From: an uncultured Ruminococcus sp.
Lineage (GTDB): Bacteria; Bacillota; Clostridia; Monoglobales; Monoglobaceae
DNA: 47,544 bases
Assembly: GCA_902797885.1 (NCBI GenBank)
Contig: CADBUP010000050.1
Coordinates: 1 to 47,544, forward strand
Direction: 5' to 3'
Shown here: piece by piece, positions 3,253 to 46,086 of the stretch
Numbering within the stretch: position 1 is the stretch's first letter
Layout: every line of letters starts with the position of its first letter
Translations under genes and position numbers: made by a program
The notes under the pieces: generated by a model
Told to the model about the DNA's origin: nothing
The model's database searches: none
The model's input: the letters and a program-made list of their open reading frames with translations, nothing else

Positions 3253-6200
3253 TTATTTAACCAATCCATTATCAAACATTCTCATAATAACCGTTGCGGC
3301 CTCCGCTCTGGTCGCCGTTCCGGTCGGGTTAAGCGTGCTTTGTGTTCTTCCGCTCATTATACCTGCTCCGCCAACATAGCAGAATGCAGGGATTGCGTAT
3401 TCCGAAATATCCTCGGCGTCGTCATACGACAGAATATTTGTGTTTTCTCCGACGCTTACATCTTCGCCTTTAAACTTAATATAACGATAGATTATCGCCG
3501 CCATCTGTTCACGGGTGATGTTGTCTTCGGGTGCAAATTCAGAATCCGAAATACCGTTTACTATTCCGTTCTCACTCGCCCAAGCAACAGCCTTTGTATA
3601 CCATTCGCCGTTTTTAACATCGCTGAACCTTATTGCGCTTGCTGACGGTTCGCTCTCCATACGATAAAGAATAGTTACAAACATGGCCCTGTTTAAGAGG
3701 CCGTCCGGCTCAAACAATTTTTCGCCCGTTCCGCGCATAATATTCTTTCCGCAGACAAAGCTTATCGCTTTATAATACCAATCATCAGCCTTAACATCGT
3801 CAAACGAAACCGCCGAATTACCATTGTTTTCGTTCGGCTTTAATGTATCATCATTTTTATTTTGGTCGGATGTATTTGTATTGTTATTTTTCCTGCCGGA
3901 GCTGCCGCCGCCGTAATGCGACATACCGCTTTCTTTTGTATAATCATTGGTATAGAACACAATTATTTTATCACCGTCGCTCAGACCGTATGCACCCATA
4001 GAAACATCCGGAATCTTTCCGTTTACCTTGTACATCCAGCCCGAGTTCTGACCGCGGTCAAGCGCACCGAGTTTTGTTCCGTCCGGCATGGTGATTGAAG
4101 GAATATATGTTCCCTGCTTTTCATACGTATATTTATTTGCATCCATAGCCTTTTTGAATATATCATATACCGTTGTTGTTTCATCTTGATCCTTATATTC
4201 CACAGTATCAATTAAGGTTTTTTTGTTATCCATAAGTGTAAACGATACATTAATTTTTTCACTTACCGCTGTTGGCTTTACGCCCTTTCTTGTTGATGTT
4301 CCGCGGACAGTCAATTCAACCGACACGGGTTGATAATACAATTCTTCAAGGTCTTTATAGTCGGCATACTTTGTCTTATCGGAATTATAAAGCTCACCGT
4401 ACTTACCGAGTGTTTCACTCGAAAGAGCCGAATCCACGGTAACGCTCTTACCGTTAGTCTGTTTGGTAACAAGCAAATTCTCGTGAGATATTACCGCCGG
4501 ATTACTTGAACGGAACAATCTCCACGCCTGTAAATCATACCACCCGTCAAGCGGAGTCGGAACGATTCCGTGACCGACCATACTCTTATTATCGCGAACC
4601 CATTTAAGTTCGCCGTTTTCTTCGTATACCTCGGTGAATGACCGGAGGTTACTGCCGATATCGTTTTTATCGGTATTCACGCCGCGGATTCCGTCAAAGT
4701 ATGCGTCTTTTACCTTTGCCATAAGCGCCTTTTCAGCGTCTATCTCCGATTTTGTAAGCGCAGGAACCTCTATTGTATACTCGCGCGACGCTGAAACGTT
4801 TGTGTTCTTATCCGTAACAGAAAGTGTGATTTTCGCCGTTGCTGCGGACTTTCCGACAGCCGGACGAATAACTTCAACGCGTGCCGCGTTGTTGACATCG
4901 GGGGTAATAACAACATCGTGGTTATCGGTTGTGATGCTGACGGGAAATTCCTTTCCGTCTATGCCGAAATCCCTTGTCGTCGGGAACTTTATGTCGTTTG
5001 TGACCGTGATTTTTCCGCTTTCGTCCGCACTCAGTTTTTCTCCGGTCACGGCATCGGTAAGCCCTGCCTTTTTAAAGCCTGTGTCTAACTTTTCGTCAAG
5101 GCCTTTCTTTATTTCCTCTGCCGCCGCCGCGTCAATCGCCTTAACGGTAACAGGGTAGACTTTTCTAACTATTATAGGGTTTTCATTGTCAGAAAAATTA
5201 AATTTGCAGGTTGCGGTCAATTCAACCCTTTTATCCGCTGCGCCGCGCTTTATCACCGCCGAATAAGGTGCAAGCGCCGTATCGGCAGAAGTCTTGTTAT
5301 CATCTAATACGGATATATAGTCTGTATCATTACTTGACCATGAAACAATCGCCCATTTTTTATCACCGACAATTTTAGGCAGTTCAATATCTTCGCTTGT
5401 CTCATTCGGAATGTTTATCTGTGACAAAATTTGGCTTGTCATATCGTCCTCTACGCGTTTTTCGTCCCAATCAACTATTACCGAGACATTGTCATAATTT
5501 ACTGTTTCTCCGTTAAACGTAATGCTAAAATCTGCCTTATGAGTACCTAAATGCTGAGTCGGATATTTATTCGGGTCAACATAATAATATGAAATATTGC
5601 CGTCCTTATCAATGCTTGAATTTCCGTTACCCGACACAACTTCCGTTTTGACAAGCTTAACATCAAAACCGTTTATATCTTCTTTTTTCTCTGCTGCCTT
5701 TTTAACAAGGTCGGATTTAAACATCTCTACTATGTTTTTGTCCGTTCCGAACTTAGGCATAAGCTTATAAAATTCGCCCAACGCCTTAAGCGTATTTGTC
5801 ACCGGTGAAAGCTTGTTTTCCTTATCGATGGCAATCTGTGCCTGTGAGTATACCTTTATTTTAAATTTTCTTATCTTTGGACTTGCTTCGAGGTAACTGA
5901 CAGTTGCAGTAAGCTCTATCTCTGCAATTCCGGTATTAGGTAATTTTACCTCACCTGTTTCCGGATTTATTATCGTATTGTCACTGCTTTTCCACGTTAT
6001 TGTCGATCCGTTCGTTCCCATTTTAGGGAGTTCAATATGAGTTTCGGCTTTTATATCCGCATCATTAATTGAAAGCTCTTTGCTGTCATTGTCCACTATA
6101 CTCTGTATAGACGGACCAATCTTAATAGCTCTCGACGGCATCTTTACTTCCGATGTTTCGCCGTTTTTGTATGTAAAGCTAAAAAACAGCTGATAACCCT

Positions 6201-7782
6201 CATATTCTTTCGGAATGGTATAGGTGTAATCATCGATTGTCGTTACGGTTTTTATTGTTTCAAATGATACGCCATTGTCCTTACTGTACTTCCATACAAT
6301 CGGCAAAACAGGAAGCTTCTGATAATCATACTCATCTTTTCCGCCTAACACATTAATCTTTGCCCTAACCGTCTCGCCGACATTTACATTACCATCTATC
6401 TCTACTGTTGTAATATAAGGCATAACAGTAATTTCAGCTGTAGCACTATACTCTTTCTTCTCATATGTAACTGTCGCCTTTACTTTTGCCTTTCCCGCCT
6501 TTTTCGGGGTTATGATATAGCTATTATTATCCTCGCTTCCACTGATAATGTCATCGCCCTCTTCAATAGACCATTTAACTTTCTGTGTGGAACTATCCAT
6601 ATTTTCACAGGTACCCAAAAGCGTTATCGTGGGTTGCGGGTTAACATTTGTCATATATATATCTGCCGCACCATTTATTTTAACAGACGGCTCTGTCTTA
6701 ACCGGAGCATCACTTTCCTGCCATATGAGTATGGGATAGCCGTTGCTGCCATCTTTAAAGGCGTCACCTAAATTAGATGCTTTAAGGCCACCATCGGGAA
6801 GGGGAGCTGCACTTCCATTTGTACCATTTACAATTTTATCACTTGTACTGTATTTAGAATAGCAATTTATTGCTTTACCTTTAAAATTAGCCGATATACC
6901 GGCGTTATATGTTCCTTTATTTGTATTTGTGGTTATGCCGGAATTATAGCAATTAGTTATTGTACTTGCCGTTTTAGATAAAGTCGCACCTATGCCGGAC
7001 GCATAGTATTTCGATGAAATATTACCCGTATTATAACAATTACTCAACACAACTTTCGATGACGAATATCCGATAATGCCCGCCGCTAAACCGTTAGCAG
7101 AAGTTATTTCGGCCGAATTTGCACAATTGCTTATTTTTACACTTTTTTTAGCATAATTTACTCGCCCAACAATTCCACCAGCGGCAGTTGTATCATTATC
7201 ATCCGGATTGTTATTACTGACACTTCCGGAAAACGAACAGCTATCAACAACTACGTTTCCCTGTGTTTTTCCGATAATTCCTCCAACAAAAGTACTGCCG
7301 GATGCTGAAATATTTCCCTCTACCTTAAGATTTTTAATCGTTGCTCCGTTTATTGTTCCGAAAAGACCTACTCCATTATCGCTGTTGGAATTAATTTTCA
7401 AGCCTTTTATAGTGTGATTTAGACCGTCAAATGTTCCGGCAAAGCCATCACTAACAGAACTTACATTTGCTATCGGCGTAAACTCTTCACCTTTTAAATC
7501 TATATCATTTGCAAGATAAAAGGCTTTTCCCTTCAACGAATAAGTGCCCTTTGCATTATCATCTTTTATCGCGGACGCAAATGCAATAAGTGCCGTTTCG
7601 CTGCTGATCTTAAATGCATCAACTGATGAAATATTTGCATCCGCCGAAAATTCAGGCAAGTCCGAAACATTGATTTCCCCCTCCGCCAAAACCGGCAGTG
7701 TTACCGAGGCCATAATCATCGCCGCCGAGAGCAGCGCGGTCAGTACTCGATACAAGCTCTTGCTTAAAATTTTTGTTTTCAT
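3253..7782 (-). CDS. SLH-anchored surface protein with GLUG, Ig-like and DUF4430 (transcobalamin-like) domains
   Basis: A 1509-residue exported protein. A signal peptide (about residues 1-33, ending in VLAEG) is followed by GLUG-type beta-helix repeats (about 95-330, e.g. GFAGTFDGLNHTIKGL), then several Ig-like/aBig_2 modules (about 360-1000, e.g. ITWKSSDNTIINPETGEV). A DUF4430 domain lies at about 1180-1281 (NSGWMYKVNG, LSDGDKIIVFYT), followed by a low-complexity linker and three SLH domains (about 1322-1509) that would bind cell-wall polymer. InterPro groups DUF4430 with the transcobalamin-like C-terminal domain. The gene is monocistronic behind a cobalamin riboswitch and terminator at 7918-8262. 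Together these imply a surface protein that captures cobalamin or related corrinoids for uptake; that function is inferred. SD GAAAGGAAAG precedes the ATG. Confidence 0.88.
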   Translation of the reverse strand: MKTKILSKSLYRVLTALLSAAMIMASVTLPVLAEGEINVSDLPEFSADANISSVDAFKISSETALIAFASAIKDDNAKGTYSLKGKAFYLANDIDLKGEEFTPIANVSSVSDGFAGTFDGLNHTIKGLKINSNSDNGVGLFGTINGATIKNLKVEGNISASGSTFVGGIIGKTQGNVVVDSCSFSGSVSNNNPDDNDTTAAGGIVGRVNYAKKSVKISNCANSAEITSANGLAAGIIGYSSSKVVLSNCYNTGNISSKYYASGIGATLSKTASTITNCYNSGITTNTNKGTYNAGISANFKGKAINCYSKYSTSDKIVNGTNGSAAPLPDGGLKASNLGDAFKDGSNGYPILIWQESDAPVKTEPSVKINGAADIYMTNVNPQPTITLLGTCENMDSSTQKVKWSIEEGDDIISGSEDNNSYIITPKKAGKAKVKATVTYEKKEYSATAEITVMPYITTVEIDGNVNVGETVRAKINVLGGKDEYDYQKLPVLPIVWKYSKDNGVSFETIKTVTTIDDYTYTIPKEYEGYQLFFSFTYKNGETSEVKMPSRAIKIGPSIQSIVDNDSKELSINDADIKAETHIELPKMGTNGSTITWKSSDNTIINPETGEVKLPNTGIAEIELTATVSYLEASPKIRKFKIKVYSQAQIAIDKENKLSPVTNTLKALGEFYKLMPKFGTDKNIVEMFKSDLVKKAAEKKEDINGFDVKLVKTEVVSGNGNSSIDKDGNISYYYVDPNKYPTQHLGTHKADFSITFNGETVNYDNVSVIVDWDEKRVEDDMTSQILSQINIPNETSEDIELPKIVGDKKWAIVSWSSNDTDYISVLDDNKTSADTALAPYSAVIKRGAADKRVELTATCKFNFSDNENPIIVRKVYPVTVKAIDAAAAEEIKKGLDEKLDTGFKKAGLTDAVTGEKLSADESGKITVTNDIKFPTTRDFGIDGKEFPVSITTDNHDVVITPDVNNAARVEVIRPAVGKSAATAKITLSVTDKNTNVSASREYTIEVPALTKSEIDAEKALMAKVKDAYFDGIRGVNTDKNDIGSNLRSFTEVYEENGELKWVRDNKSMVGHGIVPTPLDGWYDLQAWRLFRSSNPAVISHENLLVTKQTNGKSVTVDSALSSETLGKYGELYNSDKTKYADYKDLEELYYQPVSVELTVRGTSTRKGVKPTAVSEKINVSFTLMDNKKTLIDTVEYKDQDETTTVYDIFKKAMDANKYTYEKQGTYIPSITMPDGTKLGALDRGQNSGWMYKVNGKIPDVSMGAYGLSDGDKIIVFYTNDYTKESGMSHYGGGSSGRKNNNTNTSDQNKNDDTLKPNENNGNSAVSFDDVKADDWYYKAISFVCGKNIMRGTGEKLFEPDGLLNRAMFVTILYRMESEPSASAIRFSDVKNGEWYTKAVAWASENGIVNGISDSEFAPEDNITREQMAAIIYRYIKFKGEDVSVGENTNILSYDDAEDISEYAIPAFCYVGGAGIMSGRTQSTLNPTGTATRAEAATVIMRMFDNGLVK

Positions 7783-7917
7783 AAGTTTATCTTTCCTTTC
7801 TTATGTTTATATATAAAATTTTATCATTTTCAGTATTGTGCGGTTATTCCGAAAGAATAATTAATATTTCCCGCCGCGCGCCGGTCACCCTCTGCCGGAC
7901 GAATCGGTCCGAAAATC

Positions 7918-7950
7918 AAAAAAGCCGCGGTAATATAAAATTACCACAGC
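7918..7950 (-). terminator. Riboswitch expression-platform terminator
   Basis: Stem 7924-7934 with 7940-7950 and a 5-nt loop, followed on the minus strand by six U. Two of the pairs are G-U only if the RNA is read from the minus strand, which fixes the orientation. Its place between aptamer and gene indicates control by transcription termination when cobalamin is bound. Confidence 0.85.
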
Positions 7951-8061
7951 AGATTTTTCCTGTGCTTCCGCAATCCGACACAAATAAAGCCGCGAGAGAT
8001 AAACCCCTGTGCCGAAAACATCACCTCTTTGCGCAGTGAGCCTGTGCATTTTACAAGATAA

Positions 8062-8262
8062 CATCAAAGCAGGTCTTCTGACTTATACCATATGAAAATC
8101 TTATCTTCGCGCCTTATCTCCGCCTTCTCGGTTTCCCAATGACCGGCTTTCACCTATGGATATAAAGCTTTGGTACATACAGCGGCTGGTACCGTCCGGG
8201 ACTTTCACCCGATTCCCTTTTCACCGGCCATGCCCAAACGGCACAGCCGGCACTTTGTACGA
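8062..8262 (-). promoter_or_regulatory. Cobalamin (B12) riboswitch
   Basis: Read on the minus strand this region shows the hallmark cobalamin aptamer segments in order: GGGAAUCGGGUGAAAGUCCC, then a GGUACCAGCCGCUGUA segment (the CCGCUGU core), GGUGAAAGCCGG, and the closing B12 box AGUCAGAAGACCUGC near 8067-8084. This is the standard order for the AdoCbl/Cbl riboswitch family. It lies within the transcript of the SLH/DUF4430 gene and upstream of a terminator. Confidence 0.95.
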
Positions 8263-8278
8263 ATATTCAGTTTATAAC

Positions 8279-8307
8279 AGTATAACAGACTTTTGTGTTT
8301 TCTGCAA
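8279..8307 (-). promoter_or_regulatory. Promoter of the riboswitch-controlled gene
   Basis: On the minus strand: -35 TTGCAG (8302-8307), 17-bp spacer, -10 TATACT (8279-8284). The start is expected about 10 nt upstream of the aptamer. Confidence 0.75.
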
Positions 8308-10870: not shown

Positions 10871-11575
10871 TCAGTTTCGCAGGCGTTTATCCGACTTGAC
10901 CGAAATGCGCGTACCGATTGACTGAAATATCTGAACCAAAACAATAAGGAAGAATACAGCGACAAGCATAACAAGATACTTATATCTGTAATAGCCATAG
11001 TTAATGGCTATTTTACCTAAGCCTCCGCCTCCGATTATACCGCTCATAGCGGAATAACCAAGGATTGTGGTAACGGCAATCGTCAGATTCGACATAAGCG
11101 ACGGAACGCTCTCGGGTATCATAACCTTTGCAATAATCTGCATAGGCGATGCACCCATACTTTGTGCCGCCTCGATAATATTCGGATTAAGCTCGCGCAG
11201 GCTGCTTTCGACAAGCCTCGCCACGAACGGAGCAGCGGCAATAACAAGGGGAACTATCGACGCGGTGGTTCCGACCGAGGTTCCCACAATCACGCGGGTC
11301 AGCGGAATAACCAAAATCATAAGTATCAGAAACGGTATCGAACGAAGCAGGTTTATCACAACGCCCAGCACAGTCAGAACAGGTCTCGGCAGGGGAAGCA
11401 CCCCATCCTTTTCGCCAACGACAAGAAGCACGCCCAGAGGAAGACCTATAATAACCGAGAACAATGTCGAAAGAAGCGTTACATATACCGTTTCCCATAT
11501 AGCCAACAAAAATTCGTTCTGTATAATCTGTAAGGCTTCGCTCACAGCTTCATTTGAAAATAACTGACCAATCAT
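10871..11575 (-). CDS. metI: Methionine ABC transporter permease
   Basis: A 234-residue integral membrane permease of the MetI family with five to six hydrophobic segments (first near residues 25-50, last near 195-220). It carries the EAA loop contacting the ATPase (EAAQSMGASPMQIIAKVMIP, about residues 136-155) and the GGGGLG motif before the final helices. Its ATG overlaps the metN TGA by one base (TGATG), and its SD lies inside the metN 3' end, indicating translational coupling. Last gene of metQ-metN-metI. Confidence 0.95.
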   Translation of the reverse strand: MIGQLFSNEAVSEALQIIQNEFLLAIWETVYVTLLSTLFSVIIGLPLGVLLVVGEKDGVLPLPRPVLTVLGVVINLLRSIPFLILMILVIPLTRVIVGTSVGTTASIVPLVIAAAPFVARLVESSLRELNPNIIEAAQSMGASPMQIIAKVMIPESVPSLMSNLTIAVTTILGYSAMSGIIGGGGLGKIAINYGYYRYKYLVMLVAVFFLIVLVQIFQSIGTRISVKSDKRLRN

Positions 11576-12576
11576 CAGATATCCCTCCTTACAATAATAT
11601 CGGGTATATTTTCAAGATACTCGACCGCGGAGGACAGACAATCATCGCCGCCGTCAATACCTAAAATCATATTTCCGTAAACCTTATCCCCTATACACTT
11701 TGTCTGAGCATACAATATATTTGCCGCGATTTTTTTATCCATTGCCATTTTCGCAATAATAGGAGTTCCCGCAACCAACGCCCCGTTATAGATGACCCTG
11801 ATTGAATTTTTTGAAAGATGTTCCGGCAGGTTGTCATCCGGGTTCGAGGTAAACACAAGTCTCTTTGCCGCCGCCGATTTCGGCATGGTAAACACATCGT
11901 TTACCGTTCCCTCTTCGGCAATACTTCCGTTATCCAGAATCGCAACCTTATTGCACACCTTCTCGACCACACTCATCTGATGAGTAATTATAATCACTGT
12001 TATGCCGAGCCTTTTGTTTATATCTTTAATAAGGTCGAGAATAGACTCTGTGGTTTTTGGGTCAAGAGCACTCGTCGCCTCATCGCAAAGCAAGATTTTA
12101 GGGTCGGTTGCGAGGGCGCGCGCTATCGCAACTCTCTGTTGCTGACCGCCCGAAAGCCTTGACGGATATGCCTTTGCCTTATCGGGAAGCCCCACCGTTT
12201 CGAGAAGCTCAAGCGCTCTCTTTTTCGCCTTTGCGCGGCTTACGCCCGCAAGCTCTAACGGAAAACATATATTATCAAGGCAGGTACGCTGCATCAACAG
12301 ATTAAAGCTTTGAAAAATCATCGTCACATTCCTGCGAACCTCACGAAGCTTCGCCGCGCTGAGCGCACCGACATCCACGCCGTCGATTATAACCTTGCCC
12401 TCCGTCGGCCGTTCAAGCATATTTATACAGCGGACAAGCGTGCTCTTGCCGGCTCCGCTCATACCTATTATTCCATATATGTCGCCGTCATTCACGGTCA
12501 GCGTAATATTTTTCAGCGCATCAACCGTTCCGTCGGCAGTCTTAAACGTCTTAGAAAGATTTTGTATCTCTATCAT
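11575..12576 (-). CDS. metN: Methionine ABC transporter ATP-binding protein
   Basis: A 333-residue ATPase energising the D/L-methionine importer. Walker A GMSGAGKS (38-45), Q-loop near FQSFN, signature LSGGQQQR (141-148), Walker B ILLCDE (161-166), switch His in THQMS. The last ~75 residues form the NIL/ACT-type regulatory domain (methionine-binding, trans-inhibition in homologues). I place the start at the ATG at 12576: the in-frame ATG two codons earlier (12582) would be only 2 nt from the SD AAGGAG, whereas 12576 is 8 nt away and gives the family-typical MIEIQNLSK start. It follows metQ after a 186-bp gap holding a large hairpin. Confidence 0.95.
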   Translation of the reverse strand: MIEIQNLSKTFKTADGTVDALKNITLTVNDGDIYGIIGMSGAGKSTLVRCINMLERPTEGKVIIDGVDVGALSAAKLREVRRNVTMIFQSFNLLMQRTCLDNICFPLELAGVSRAKAKKRALELLETVGLPDKAKAYPSRLSGGQQQRVAIARALATDPKILLCDEATSALDPKTTESILDLIKDINKRLGITVIIITHQMSVVEKVCNKVAILDNGSIAEEGTVNDVFTMPKSAAAKRLVFTSNPDDNLPEHLSKNSIRVIYNGALVAGTPIIAKMAMDKKIAANILYAQTKCIGDKVYGNMILGIDGGDDCLSSAVEYLENIPDIIVRRDI

Positions 12577-12664
12577 AACCATTACTCCTTATCCGCCGCC
12601 CTGCCCGGCAATATTACCATCTCTCGCCCACAGGAAACACCGACAAAAGATTTGTTTATTAAAA

Positions 12665-12736
12665 AGCACAAATTACCACCAAGGCACACGGCGGCGAAGT
12701 AACCTTGAAAACCGTGTGCATAGGTGGCATCTTTGC
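12665..12736 (-). terminator. Large intercistronic hairpin between metQ and metN
   Basis: GCACACGG (12684-12691) pairs with CCGTGTGC (12712-12719). The stem is extended by CCACC/GGTGG (12676-12680 with 12723-12727) and further by AGCA.AA/TTTGCT, leaving a 20-nt apical loop. On the minus strand it is followed by GCUUUUUAAUAAAC. It could be a partial terminator or a processing/stabilising stem that raises metQ over metNI. The remainder of the gap shows no gene. Confidence 0.7.
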
Positions 12737-12762
12737 TTTGTGAGGTCTGCACCCCACCGAAA

Positions 12763-13620
12763 TTATTTAATTGGGTCAAGCGACTTCTGCTTTCCGCCGT
12801 ACAAGCCCATCGGCTCTACGTGGATTGCGCCGACTGATACGATGTGCGTTCCGTTCTGTTTGTTGAAGTCCTCAAGATAGGGCAGGTGCTGGAAATAGTT
12901 TGCATCAACCTCACCGCTATCCACAACGTTATTCGGCTGAATATAATCTGTGAACTCCTTGATGTCAAGCTTAATGTTCTTATCGGCAAGCAATTCCTTC
13001 GCCACCGCAAGAATTTCGGCGTGGGGTGTCGGCGAAGCGGCAACCGAAATCGTGCTTCCCGATAACGCGTCATAGTTCACCGAATCATCATAGCCGCTTC
13101 CCGGATTGTCAACAACGCTTACCACAGAACCTGAATACTTATCATTGATAAAATCCGCTACCTTTTTGCTTTCGAGCGCCGCCTTGAGCGCCTTAACCTT
13201 ATCGCTGTTTTCCGTTCCTTCCTTAACAGCAAGAATATTTCCGTATGCCGAAGAAGAACCCTCGGTAACAAGTGAATCCGATTTCGGATTTAGGTTTGCC
13301 TGGATAGCATAGTTTGAATTAATAACGGCATAGTCAACATCCTTTAAAACATTAGGAATCTGCGCCGCCTCAACCTCTTTGAACTTAATGTTATGCGGAT
13401 TCTCGGAAATATCACTAACTGTTGCCGTAATACCCGCTCCGTCCTTTAACTTGATATAGCCGTTGTCCTGAAGCAGGAGCAGGGCGCGCGCCTCATTGGT
13501 CGTATCGTTCGGTACGGCAATAGTAATATCCTTTCCCGACTTTCCGCCGCAGGCCGTAAGCAAGGCCGCCGCTGTAACTACCGCTAAAACACCTGATAAT
13601 AACTTTGTTAATCTTTTCAT
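12763..13620 (-). CDS. metQ: Methionine-binding lipoprotein
   Basis: A 285-residue substrate-binding lipoprotein of the NlpA/MetQ family. A lipobox LTAC (residues ~21-24) directs lipidation of Cys24, followed by GGKSGKD. Family segments include IKFKEVEAAQIPNVLKDVDYAVINSNYA and a C-terminal portion near NTHIVSVGAIHVEP-type sequence. SD GGAGG precedes the ATG. First gene of metQ-metN-metI under the promoter at 13661-13690. I find no S-box (SAM riboswitch) or T-box in the 5' region, so control may be by a transcription factor. Confidence 0.93.
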   Translation of the reverse strand: MKRLTKLLSGVLAVVTAAALLTACGGKSGKDITIAVPNDTTNEARALLLLQDNGYIKLKDGAGITATVSDISENPHNIKFKEVEAAQIPNVLKDVDYAVINSNYAIQANLNPKSDSLVTEGSSSAYGNILAVKEGTENSDKVKALKAALESKKVADFINDKYSGSVVSVVDNPGSGYDDSVNYDALSGSTISVAASPTPHAEILAVAKELLADKNIKLDIKEFTDYIQPNNVVDSGEVDANYFQHLPYLEDFNKQNGTHIVSVGAIHVEPMGLYGGKQKSLDPIK

Positions 13621-40012: not shown

Positions 40013-42856
40013 TTATTTAGGCAATACGCAAAGCAATCTAACCTTACCCTCTGACATATAAATCAGCACCTTGCTCGGTTCGACTTTATCATCTAATGAT
40101 ACAAGACTTTCTATTGCACTTGAAGCATCACCTTCGTTAAGCTCCAAAGTCTTTCCGGTATTATCATAGGTAACCGCCTTTGCGCCCGAGAAATCACTAA
40201 TGTTAAAGGTGATATCCTCTGAATCATCATAGTTGCCGTCCTTCGTAACTTCCTTAGGAGCAATGAGAATTGTGTTCGTATCAGTATTATCTATAGCGAT
40301 AACGCTTCCCAGAATAGCTATAAACTCAGCCTTCTTGATATCCTTCTCTTTTTCATTTGCGTCACGTTTAATACCGAAAGAATTATTCTCTCCATAGCTA
40401 TAGAGAATATACTCATCATCAAGAAGAGTATTGCCGTCGCTATCGTGAACCGCTCTGAATATATCGCCCTTCTTAAAGCTGTCTATGCCCTTAGAGTCAT
40501 CTGATACCCACTCATCCGATGTTGATACCGTTCCTGTCGGTCCAACCTTTAACGGTGTAATCTTATGCATATTTTCGCCGCTGCTCTTTTCACCCTCTGA
40601 CATTTCCTTCAGAACATATACCGGTGAGGATGAGTCCATTTCTTCTGCATTTCCCGAACCTGCTTTATTATAGAGAACTACTACCTTGGCTGCATTTGTG
40701 GCCGAAACATCAAATGCTTCAACATTGTAGGTATTTCTATTTTTAAAACTGGTTGCAACAGTAGTTTTTCTGAACGAATCATAATCGCTTCTGCTTTCGG
40801 GAACCGAGAAGACGGTTGCGCTCGAAATCGTTATTTTGGTCTTTTTATCGCTTGTTGTAAGTGTTTTAGAATCGCTGTCATAAGTCATCTCGACAGAAGC
40901 ATCTATCGCACTATATTTATTAAGCTTGTCAGCAACAATCTCCGCACCCTTGTCTGCTTCTACAGCAGTAATAATCTTATCAAAGACCTTGCTTCCGCTG
41001 ACAGTCTTAGTGGTATACTTTATAAGCTGTTGAATACCGCGGCCGTCAGTATTCTGTAATCTTGCAGACTCCTTCAGCTTAGAGATAACAGCCGTGCCGG
41101 TGTTATATGTTTCTCCGTCAACCTTTGTACTCTTATAAGTTGAAAGCAACTCGGTCGAACCCGATGAATTGATTAACTTTATCTGAACGTCGCCGTCGAA
41201 GCTATCCTTTGATTCACTATAGCCTTCAACATAACCATATTTAAAGGTCTCGGTTGTAGAGTTCTTTGAATATGCAACGATGTCGCCGTTTATATCAAGA
41301 TAGTATGTTCCGCTGTCTGACATCTGAGGCTTTGAAAGTGTTGTACTGTCATTCTTCCACGGAGCAGCATCCGAGAATTTATATTCCTTGCCGCCAATGG
41401 TAACCTTATCGTCACCGTCTGTTGCGGAAATAGTTCCGCTGACCTTATCGGTAAGAACAACAGCCTTTGTGGTGATTGTACCACTCTTACTCTTCGCAAC
41501 ACAGATAATATTTCCTGTTGAAATTGAGCTATATGTAACGGTCTTTCCATCTTTATTCACAATACTGAGATTTCTGTCTTTATCTACATCAAGATTAAGA
41601 ATCTTGTTGTCCGCTTTCATTACAAGATTATCTATAATTGATGTAGAAGAAGTATCCTTTGTCGAAACATAGTATACATCATAAGAAGTAATATCGATTA
41701 CATCATATTTTCCATCACTATCAGAGTCTATAAACTTAACTTGTCCGATTTTAGGAATGTCACTTGATGCATCGAAGCTTGAACCTGTGTACTTTCCGTT
41801 ATAAATAACCTTATTGTCCGAAGCAAGTGACAAACTCTTTGTCTTGTCATCATTTTCTTTTTCATAATACTTGACCTGACTACCATCGGTTGAGCTTGTT
41901 TCTATATTCTTGGCATTTATAACAACAGGTTCCTTACCCTTAAGTGTACAGAACATAAGAGTTCTGTCGCTTGAGTTGTCATTCTTATAATAATACTCTA
42001 CCTCATAGCCGAGACGTTCTTTAAGGCTTGCATCTGTTGTAATATATGTATGAAGCTCATAGGAATTAGAATTATCATCTTTCCCGTTAATCTGAATTTC
42101 ATCATCGCGGAGATTTACATCCGCACTCGCGAGACTCGTAATGTTATTTGAATAGATCGTACCCGTACCTCTTACATATCCGAGATATGAACTGAGTATT
42201 GTGTTGGTGGTTTTCTTATCATTCTCAACAAGCTTAACTTCAAGCGAGTCATAAAGAAGCTGAGCAATGCAAGCACGTGACGCAGGAGTCTCTACTTGTC
42301 CGATTTTACTTGCAGTCTTTGTTACTCCTATCTGGCTTGCAACCGAAATGTAATTTGCATACCACGGTGATACAGACACGTCAACATTTGAGCCATAGCC
42401 TAAGGTGCAGACAATCATCTTAACCGCTTCTTCATAAGCAACATTGTCGCTCGGTCTGAAGGTTCCATCCTCATAGCCATTGATAATACCCTTACCGTAT
42501 GCAGTATTAATATTAGGAATAGCCCAGTTAATATCAGAGTTGTTATCATCTATATCACTAAACGGTAAGCCGGCAGCGCTCTTGCTTCCGGTATCACCCA
42601 ATTTAAGCGTTCTCATAAGCATAGCAGTAAACTCTGCTCGTGTAACATTCTGGTTAGGTTTGAATGTTCCATCTGTGTAACCGTTGATAATACCCATGAT
42701 GCTGAGCGTATTTACCGCATCATAGTAAATCTCGCTGTCATTCACATCTGTTAATTTCTTTGTCGTACCCTCTGCCGAAACAGTCACCATCGCAGCACAG
42801 CTGATAATCATCGCAAGCGACAGCACCAGGCACAATAATCTTTTTGTGGTTTTCAT
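40013..42856 (-). CDS. S-layer protein with N-terminal SLH domains
   Basis: 947 residues. A signal peptide (1-28, ending TVSAEG) precedes three SLH domains (about 34-85, 98-155 and 160-207; GYTDGTFKPNQNVTRAEF is canonical), which attach to pyruvylated wall polymer. The remaining ~740 residues are acidic, Ser/Thr/Asp-rich and repetitive-looking beta structure (e.g. DSDSDGKYDVIDITSYDVYYV, a possible calcium-binding DxDxDG loop). No catalytic motif is seen, so it is most likely the structural S-layer subunit or one of several. The strong promoter at 42914-42942 and the 3' hairpin fit an abundant mRNA. SD GGAGG precedes the ATG. Confidence 0.88.
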   Translation of the reverse strand: MKTTKRLLCLVLSLAMIISCAAMVTVSAEGTTKKLTDVNDSEIYYDAVNTLSIMGIINGYTDGTFKPNQNVTRAEFTAMLMRTLKLGDTGSKSAAGLPFSDIDDNNSDINWAIPNINTAYGKGIINGYEDGTFRPSDNVAYEEAVKMIVCTLGYGSNVDVSVSPWYANYISVASQIGVTKTASKIGQVETPASRACIAQLLYDSLEVKLVENDKKTTNTILSSYLGYVRGTGTIYSNNITSLASADVNLRDDEIQINGKDDNSNSYELHTYITTDASLKERLGYEVEYYYKNDNSSDRTLMFCTLKGKEPVVINAKNIETSSTDGSQVKYYEKENDDKTKSLSLASDNKVIYNGKYTGSSFDASSDIPKIGQVKFIDSDSDGKYDVIDITSYDVYYVSTKDTSSTSIIDNLVMKADNKILNLDVDKDRNLSIVNKDGKTVTYSSISTGNIICVAKSKSGTITTKAVVLTDKVSGTISATDGDDKVTIGGKEYKFSDAAPWKNDSTTLSKPQMSDSGTYYLDINGDIVAYSKNSTTETFKYGYVEGYSESKDSFDGDVQIKLINSSGSTELLSTYKSTKVDGETYNTGTAVISKLKESARLQNTDGRGIQQLIKYTTKTVSGSKVFDKIITAVEADKGAEIVADKLNKYSAIDASVEMTYDSDSKTLTTSDKKTKITISSATVFSVPESRSDYDSFRKTTVATSFKNRNTYNVEAFDVSATNAAKVVVLYNKAGSGNAEEMDSSSPVYVLKEMSEGEKSSGENMHKITPLKVGPTGTVSTSDEWVSDDSKGIDSFKKGDIFRAVHDSDGNTLLDDEYILYSYGENNSFGIKRDANEKEKDIKKAEFIAILGSVIAIDNTDTNTILIAPKEVTKDGNYDDSEDITFNISDFSGAKAVTYDNTGKTLELNEGDASSAIESLVSLDDKVEPSKVLIYMSEGKVRLLCVLPK

Positions 42857-44292: not shown

Positions 44293-45744
44293 TTATTTAT
44301 ATTCTACTCCCATATACTCACATATACCCTTTGCAATCGCTTCAGCATATGCCTGCTGACGGTCGGGGTCACCCAGAACAGCCGCATCCGACGCCGTATC
44401 AATAAACGCTGTTTCGAGAAGAAGCGCCGGCATATTTGTGTTTCTCAAAACCGCATATCTCGCCGACTTAACACCGCGGTTTCTAAGCCCAATCTCTGAT
44501 ACAACATTCTTCTGAATAAATGATGCGAATGTCTTGCTTGTCTCCGAGCCTGTGCAGTAATATGTTTCTATTCCCGTTCCGCCGCCTGCGTTACAATGAA
44601 TCGAAACAAATAAGTCGGCCCCGCTTCGGTTTGCTATTTCCGCACGGCGGTTAAGACTTGCACTTACCGATTCGTTTGAAACATTATCCTTTATCGAATT
44701 TCTTGTCATTATCACATTAAATCCGTTTCTCTCAAGCTCGGGTTTAAGTTTTTCGGCTATATAATAGGTAATATCCTGCTCACGCAGACCATTTCCTGTC
44801 GCACCTGTATCCACCCCGTTATAATTGTGTCCGGGGTCAATGGCAATCAGTATTCCGTCTGACGAGCCCTTTGGAACATAACTTGAAATAATGTCATCTT
44901 CGTCATCACTGCTTGAATCGGGTGTCGTATATGTCTGTGAATCTTCATCCTCTTTCATATACTGCTCATAATCCTCACCATAATACTGATAATACTTCCA
45001 AACCGCATCCTCTTGGCTCGGCTCCCATATTTCCTCGGGTTCATAACCGGTCGAAGCCGTTGTGTTTCCGGTAGATGTTATTGACGAAGTTCCTTTTCCA
45101 CTGTTATTTCCGCCTACGTCAACCGCATGGTCACCGACTGTCGTTTTATCCTCGCCGCTGACCAGCATTGAATTATATACAACCTGTGCAACAAACGCTC
45201 TTGTTGCCGGTTTTGATACCTCTACTTCAACTCCGTCAAGAAGGTTGTACTTCTTTGCAACATTAAGATACCCGGAATACCATTTGGGTCCTACATTTGA
45301 AAGCGACTCATCTCCGACACCCGATGCGCATACAACCATTTTAACCGCCTGTTCGCAGGTAATGTTACTGCTCGGTGAAAATGTATCCGCACTCATACCG
45401 TTTACATAGCCGTTTGAATAACAATAAGAGATATAGCTCTCTGCCCAGTTCCCGCTCTTAACATCGGTGAACGGAAGAGTAACCGCCGTATATGTTTCAC
45501 TGAAATTATTTGCACGGGCCAAAAAGGCACAAAACTCCGCACGCGTTGTATTATCCGACGGGCCAAATACCCCATCGCCTCTACCCTGAATGACACCGTC
45601 ATTACTCAATCTGTCAACCGCCTTATAATATGATGCCGTAATCGGTACATCTGAAAATTCCTTACCGAATACAGCGCAAGGAGCAGCTATTGTCATAATC
45701 ATCACAGTCATAAAAACAACTGCCGCCATTATCTGCTTATGCAT
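44293..45744 (-). CDS. SLH-anchored N-acetylmuramoyl-L-alanine amidase
   Basis: 483 residues, a secreted Zn-dependent cell-wall hydrolase. The signal peptide (1-27) is followed by three SLH domains (about 28-85, 90-150, 150-200; GVFGPSDNTTRAEF), a low-complexity acidic linker (205-290) and an Amidase_3 domain (298-483). Zn ligands are His306 (DPGHN), Glu322 (REQD) and His383 (SIHCN); the catalytic Glu is Glu444 (LLETAF). It cleaves the lactyl-amide bond of peptidoglycan, for growth or separation. I place the start at ATG 45744 behind SD AGGTGG; the frame extends to 45870 but that stretch is not signal-like. Monocistronic with its own promoter and terminator. Confidence 0.93.
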   Translation of the reverse strand: MHKQIMAAVVFMTVMIMTIAAPCAVFGKEFSDVPITASYYKAVDRLSNDGVIQGRGDGVFGPSDNTTRAEFCAFLARANNFSETYTAVTLPFTDVKSGNWAESYISYCYSNGYVNGMSADTFSPSSNITCEQAVKMVVCASGVGDESLSNVGPKWYSGYLNVAKKYNLLDGVEVEVSKPATRAFVAQVVYNSMLVSGEDKTTVGDHAVDVGGNNSGKGTSSITSTGNTTASTGYEPEEIWEPSQEDAVWKYYQYYGEDYEQYMKEDEDSQTYTTPDSSSDDEDDIISSYVPKGSSDGILIAIDPGHNYNGVDTGATGNGLREQDITYYIAEKLKPELERNGFNVIMTRNSIKDNVSNESVSASLNRRAEIANRSGADLFVSIHCNAGGGTGIETYYCTGSETSKTFASFIQKNVVSEIGLRNRGVKSARYAVLRNTNMPALLLETAFIDTASDAAVLGDPDRQQAYAEAIAKGICEYMGVEYK

Positions 45745-45813
45745 TAAATCCACCTCTGATTTCGTAATCGTCCCGAAACAAAATTGTAACACTATTTTGC
45801 CTGAACAAATAAA

Positions 45814-45842
45814 ATTATACCACGTTTTGCATAAAAAATCAA
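45814..45842 (-). promoter_or_regulatory. Amidase gene promoter
   Basis: Minus strand: -35 TTGATT (45837-45842), 17-bp spacer, -10 TATAAT (45814-45819) with extended TGG. Confidence 0.75.
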
Positions 45843-46086
45843 GTCTTTCCGTCATTTTTTCATATTTCAAAGCCGTATATAATGATTTTTTATTAATATT
45901 TCATATATTTTTATATAATGTAATATTTTTGTAACATTTCAAAAAATCCGCTTTATGATGTGTTTCTCAACAGAGCATCCCCAAAATGTTGTGCAAGATG
46001 AGCGCGGTTGACCGCCCCGCTTTCTAATTTTATAGAACGCCGAAACACGGTTTTTCGACGTATATTTTTGTGCAACTTTTTATTGA

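Follow-up and report, generated by a model that had tools for sequence, protein, structure and literature searches.

Cobalamin riboswitch and the exported protein downstream

The window, i.e., the whole 47,544-nucleotide stretch of DNA that was analyzed, carries on its minus strand a cobalamin riboswitch followed by a terminator hairpin and a single open reading frame (ORF). The aptamer (8051..8272, minus strand) matches the Rfam covariance model RF00174 from its first to its last position (1-189) with 84.2 bits against a gathering threshold of 31.5 (E value, 2e-19), in agreement with an initial annotation that had placed a minus-strand cobalamin aptamer at 8062-8262. Its core is complete, with an intact B12-box (AGUCAGAAGACCUGC), and it is the sole RF00174 match in the host genome (2.58 Mb, 98% complete). 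The intrinsic terminator proposed at 7918-7950 of the minus strand as the riboswitch expression platform is present, with an 11-pair stem (7950-7924) followed by TTTTTT; its fold z score is -2.65, and the same scan yields 0.7 such sites in shuffled sequences, so that it is weak when taken alone. The promoter annotated at 8279-8307 (minus strand) is left as a putative element, as TTGCAG-17-TATACT can be read there by eye but the consensus scan detected no promoter on the minus strand. By analogy with known B12 riboswitches, low cobalamin would favor expression of the gene.

The ORF (3253..7782, minus strand) encodes a protein of 1509 residues with an N terminus that reads as signal-like, in keeping with the earlier description of an exported protein, and Pfam confirms its DUF4430 domain and three S-layer homology (SLH) domains. 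The DUF4430 domain (residues 1203-1278; 3949..4176, minus strand) reaches 49.9 bits against a cut-off of 23.8, and the three SLH domains (residues ~1325-1501; 3280..3810, minus strand), which would anchor the protein to the cell wall, reach 97 bits and also match the SLH structures of the S-layer protein Sap. Where Ig-like modules had been annotated, Pfam reports one, an aBig_2 module (residues 563-646; 5845..6096, minus strand) that is probably part of a stalk. The N-terminal module (residues ~61-345; 6748..7602, minus strand), previously described as GLUG repeats, is better called GLUG-like: Pfam reports no GLUG match at E values of ≤0.1, yet the region recurs in other riboswitch-linked transcobalamin-like proteins. 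A GLUG-like module is also N-terminal in many other large members of the system, and in two genomes (G007 and G015) the gene for the riboswitch-linked alpha/beta protein is followed by one for a stand-alone GLUG-like protein (L073:809-4795, minus strand, and L074:7003-8025, plus strand). Two more SLH proteins, one of them with an Amidase_3 domain, are encoded in the window at 40013-42856 and 44293-45870 (both minus strand); SLH-based wall anchoring in the host thus extends beyond the 3253-7782 gene.

Transcobalamin-like beta and alpha domains

In animal B12 carriers, a helical alpha6-alpha6 barrel is joined to a beta domain, and both halves hold the ligand in transcobalamin. The InterPro name of PF14478, the family of the beta domain, is "Transcobalamin-like, C-terminal." In animal transcobalamins, DUF4430 is known to make up the C-terminal domain (PMC4350170). 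For an AlphaFold2 model of the window domain (mean pLDDT, 84.6), 39 DUF4430 domains of the host's GTDB family were aligned (A1), the window sequence being placed first. One Trp is invariant in this alignment, within an SGW-Y-VNG core, and the window domain is intact.

Comparison of the model with solved structures by VIA-align gave the beta domains of transcobalamin, haptocorrin, and intrinsic factor as the best 14 matches (Z scores of 7.6-9.2 over 81-84 residues at 2.2-2.4 Å), followed by the bacterial DUF4430 protein 3u7z (Z score, 6.6) and then by unrelated folds (≤4.7). The match to the transcobalamin beta domain, for which a structural check had been suggested, is therefore specific. Foldseek placed transcobalamin and haptocorrin at ranks 1-2 and intrinsic factor at rank 4, with E values that are modest, as expected at 100 residues. 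When the DUF4430 sequence profile was compared with the PDB, 3u7z (E value, 0.005) and transcobalamin-2 (E value, 0.0055) came ahead of all else. The window domain thus has the beta fold of the transcobalamin/intrinsic factor/haptocorrin family (PF01122 plus PF14478), and the best explanation of the model is that it represents one half, the beta (lid) side, of a clamp of the transcobalamin type. Counting against this explanation, DUF4430 also occurs in short bacterial lipoproteins, and 3u7z has been called a putative metal-binding protein.

The window protein itself has no alpha6-alpha6 toroid, as the alpha-domain comparison gave no match, and the alpha toroid of the host genome is carried by a separate SLH-anchored protein (P0002). 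The host thereby departs from the animal carriers, in which toroid and beta domain form one chain, as they also do in a homologue from the same genus. Riboswitch-linked counterparts with both domains were found in three genomes of that genus (L063, encoding P0004, of G035; L064 of G036; and L065 of G037). An AlphaFold model of the alpha and beta domains of P0004 (pLDDT, 87) retrieved transcobalamin, intrinsic factor, and haptocorrin as the top 15 PDB chains in Foldseek (E values of 5e-9 to 1e-7), with terpene cyclases next (E value, 2e-4). In addition, PF01122 (Cobalamin_bind, "Eukaryotic cobalamin-binding protein") matches 4 of 30 bacterial alpha domains (best E value, 9.5e-6). In the P0004 model, alpha and beta are not arranged relative to each other as they are in transcobalamin (root mean square deviation of ~20 Å over both), and the clamp geometry is accordingly something that we infer. 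We rejected the alpha fold by itself as evidence for B12 binding because lone toroids match terpene cyclases and sugar epimerases equally well or better; our argument therefore relies on alpha and beta together, on PF01122, and on genomic context. Being the beta half only, the window protein may bind weakly by itself.

Two further observations concern the alpha half. P0002 (L004:10262-11890) has a partial match to the NCBIfam "SCO2321 family membrane protein" (53 bits against a cut-off of 300), and this Streptomyces family may be a distant counterpart of the alpha-toroid protein. In G034, a genome of the same genus, the riboswitch-linked protein (L066:2870-4609, plus strand; 579 residues) stops after the alpha domain, and no DUF4430 was found genome-wide (79% complete); this protein is possibly truncated.

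The C153 operon, corrinoid need, and linkage across relatives

No B12 transporter adjoins the window gene, and the initial annotation had placed the partner elsewhere. As anticipated, contig C153 carries the second DUF4430 gene of the host, within a run of closely spaced, co-directional genes (G000:C153:33262-39073) encoding the alpha-toroid SLH protein P0002, a membrane-tethered DUF4430 protein, a CbiQ-type ECF T component, and a fused ECF A1-A2-S protein. The ECF set is complete by Pfam (CbiQ, two ABC_tran stretches, and ECF S), and TIGR04520 scores above its cut-off. In SEED, a predicted cobalamin ECF transporter goes by names such as CbrT/U/V. An S-domain profile built from alignment A6 gave ECF-CbrT (6fnp) as its best solved structure (E value, 4e-20), ahead of the riboflavin S component 3p5n (E value, 5e-5), so the C153 S component is closer to CbrT than to other S components. 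The 6fnp structure is that of ECF-CbrT from Lactobacillus delbrueckii, for which binding and transport of both cobalamin and cobinamide have been shown (PMC5997447). C153 is thus best explained, at the level of sequence, as encoding a predicted CbrT-type cobalamin ECF transporter. Whereas L. delbrueckii CbrT uses a shared common module (group II), the C153 ECF is dedicated, has its S component fused to the ATPases, and is encoded in an operon with extracellular transcobalamin-like proteins. A genome search for a B12 transporter under a B12 riboswitch therefore succeeded in part: a CbrT-type ECF transporter was found, but no riboswitch was detected at the C153 cluster, which weakens the case for co-regulation with the window protein, and no FecCD-type permease was found.

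The only protein with a B12-binding domain in the host is MetH. MetE, FecCD-type permeases (the family that includes BtuC), CobS, and the PduO-type adenosyltransferase were not found in this 98% complete genome, while most control genomes were positive in the same searches. Given this completeness, a methionine synthase relying on imported corrinoid is the simplest reading. A methionine ABC transporter of the MetI-MetN-MetQ type (permease, NIL-domain ATPase, and NlpA lipoprotein) is encoded in the window at 10871-13620 (minus strand), 2 kb past the riboswitch locus. The genome has MetH, with no MetE found, and both methionine routes, uptake and B12 linked, are near each other.

A survey of riboswitch and DUF4430 co-occurrence, proposed with the initial annotation, revealed a systematic association. 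The 38 genomes covered from the same GTDB family contain 41 riboswitches. Of these, 32 are followed on the same strand, at a distance of no more than 8 kb, by a DUF4430 gene, and several of the others sit at contig ends. An independent set comprised 79 loci from named organisms. They were selected through a peptide pattern of DUF4430 and verified in tblastn searches with alpha and beta, the riboswitch being unused; the set partly overlaps the family counts, since a few loci (for instance, L103, L110, L111, L139, and L165) are contigs of family genomes from which the model was built. A riboswitch lies upstream on the same strand at 51/79 of these loci, and 52 of 55 riboswitch matches are so placed (binomial P value of 6e-29 against random position and strand, too small as a probability because the loci are related to one another). 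The riboswitch covariance model, derived from alignment A5, contains just 17 pairs and relies on sequence; eight loci were therefore checked independently with Rfam, which concurred in all eight. The 79 loci span Monoglobus, Ructibacterium, Oscillospiraceae, Lachnospiraceae, Paenibacillus, Lentibacillus, Anaerovorax, and Peptococcaceae.

An ECF T or S component is encoded on the same strand at 52/79 loci. Alpha and beta reside within one large protein at 58 loci, and 18 encode a large beta protein without alpha, as in the window, several of these with a separate alpha-SLH gene next to it. In four genomes (G037, G019, G002, and G029), one co-directional run (L065, L068, L071, and L072, respectively) holds the riboswitch, a large SLH-DUF4430 protein, an alpha protein, a DUF4430 lipoprotein or transmembrane protein, and the ECF genes; in G027 and G020 (L081 and L082), the riboswitch directly precedes ECF-T/AAS. 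The system is hence a recurrent operon in Bacillota and is not peculiar to one genome. In the reduced genomes G017 and G016, the riboswitch is followed, 332 bases further on, only by the gene for a short DUF4430 lipoprotein of ~140 residues (L077:1934-2350 and L089:2612-3037, both plus strand), and no alpha domain was found genome-wide; this is a minimal version of the system. In Butyricicoccus sp. Marseille-Q5471 (L154:6073-6603), two tandem cobalamin riboswitches precede alpha-SLH, DUF4430, and ECF genes.

Proposed corrinoid capture at the cell wall and its known counterparts

We consider it probable that the window protein belongs to a wall-anchored, two-part, transcobalamin-like apparatus that captures corrinoid and feeds a CbrT-type ECF importer. 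The riboswitch, the domain folds, the operon linkage, the CbrT-type S component, the presence of MetH, and the failure to find MetE, an FecCD permease, or CobS all enter into this reading. The wall-anchored corrinoid scavenger originally put forward is thereby supported through a specific fold match, a systematic riboswitch linkage, and a CbrT-type partner, with two corrections: the window protein contributes just the beta half of the clamp, and the system recurs across Bacillota and is not confined to one genome. The working order that we infer from the anatomy of the proteins would be as follows. At low internal cobalamin, the riboswitch would let transcription pass the terminator; the wall proteins, i.e., the window beta protein and the alpha protein of C153, would pair across chains and trap corrinoid outside the cell; the ligand would then be passed to the membrane-tethered beta (DUF4430) protein and taken over by the ECF S component; and the transporter would import it for MetH.

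Counting against this proposal, the window protein has no alpha domain, while transcobalamin uses both halves for its ligand. Since the corresponding riboswitch-linked proteins of G035, G036, and G037 carry alpha and beta, and GLUG-like and Ig modules accompany beta in the window protein, with no alpha domain, this protein could be a degenerate paralogue that kept the riboswitch and the anchor, lost alpha, and now has a structural or adhesive role with no corrinoid capture. We regard this as unlikely, as the beta domain retains the invariant Trp and the SGW-Y-VNG core, large proteins with beta and no alpha occur at 18/79 loci, in several cases with a separate gene for alpha-SLH downstream, P0002 provides an alpha-SLH gene in the host genome itself, and the aptamer core is intact in the only riboswitch found there.

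The identity of the ligand raises a different possibility. B12 riboswitches control cobalt transporters as well, and the T component matches the Pfam family CbiQ, "cobalt transport protein"; the system might thus import cobalt or another small molecule, with the CbiQ-like T component and the riboswitch reflecting the cobalt supply of B12-dependent metabolism. CbiQ, however, is just what the T-component family is called. The S component belongs to the CbrT type, and outside the cell the domains are folded like B12 carriers; with no CobS found in the genome, cobalt would have scant use in corrinoid synthesis. Taken together, these points make the import of cobalt or another small molecule very improbable. 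As for the fold, DUF4430 might be a general beta-grasp binding module that resembles transcobalamin merely through shared topology, and ubiquitin-like beta-grasp proteins (SAMP1 and ThiS) do appear lower in the structural list. They do so at Z scores of ≤4.7 against 7.6-9.2 for the B12 carriers; moreover, bacterial alpha and beta domains occur in a single chain, as in transcobalamin, and the linkage to the riboswitch and CbrT does not depend on the fold. We give this last possibility very little credence, the least of the three.

Compared with the animal carriers, the bacterial apparatus that we propose is SLH anchored and riboswitch controlled, includes GLUG-like and Ig modules, and in the host genome has alpha and beta on separate proteins. 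An extracellular lipoprotein has already been coupled to a predicted cobalamin ECF transporter, as K8Q211 is annotated "Additional lipoprotein component of putative cobalamin ECF transporter" (PMC9963975), a likeness that we draw from the annotation name only. The same work notes a DUF4430 gene that adjoins rtpR; it describes neither SLH-anchored alpha/beta transcobalamin-like proteins nor their riboswitch linkage or fold (PMC9963975). A search of the open-access literature returned no report of SLH-anchored alpha/beta transcobalamin-like proteins under B12 riboswitches, and a prior description is possible. The ECF part and an additional lipoprotein are hence known from the annotation of others, while the surface transcobalamin architecture predicted here appears to be undescribed.

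The closest functional parallel is BtuG of Bacteroides, which is surface exposed, is encoded in riboswitch-regulated B12 uptake loci, and captures B12 ahead of the transporter (PMC6143338). BtuG is a beta-propeller lipoprotein that works with the outer membrane TonB-dependent BtuB; no propeller family is found among the Pfam matches of the window protein, a comparison made at the sequence level only, and the likeness concerns the role, with no homology suggested. Homologues of BtuG were not detected outside Bacteroidetes (PMC6143338), and many Gram-positive bacteria encode variations of the known B12 machinery (PMC6977713). Extracellular capture of scarce B12 by Gram-positive bacteria is poorly described. 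More tentatively, and with somewhat more doubt than confidence in the claim as a whole, we suggest that many Bacillota display on their wall a transcobalamin, often of two chains (an SLH-anchored alpha toroid and an SLH- or membrane-anchored beta protein), that clamps corrinoid between these two parts and relays it to a CbrT-type ECF transporter, and that the animal B12 carriers and the bacterial alpha-plus-beta proteins go back to one ancestor. If true, Bacillota would have their own counterpart of BtuG in a B12-controlled surface transcobalamin; this would matter for B12 competition in the gut and rumen and would assign a function to DUF4430. It would also raise a testable question about the origin of the animal B12 carriers.
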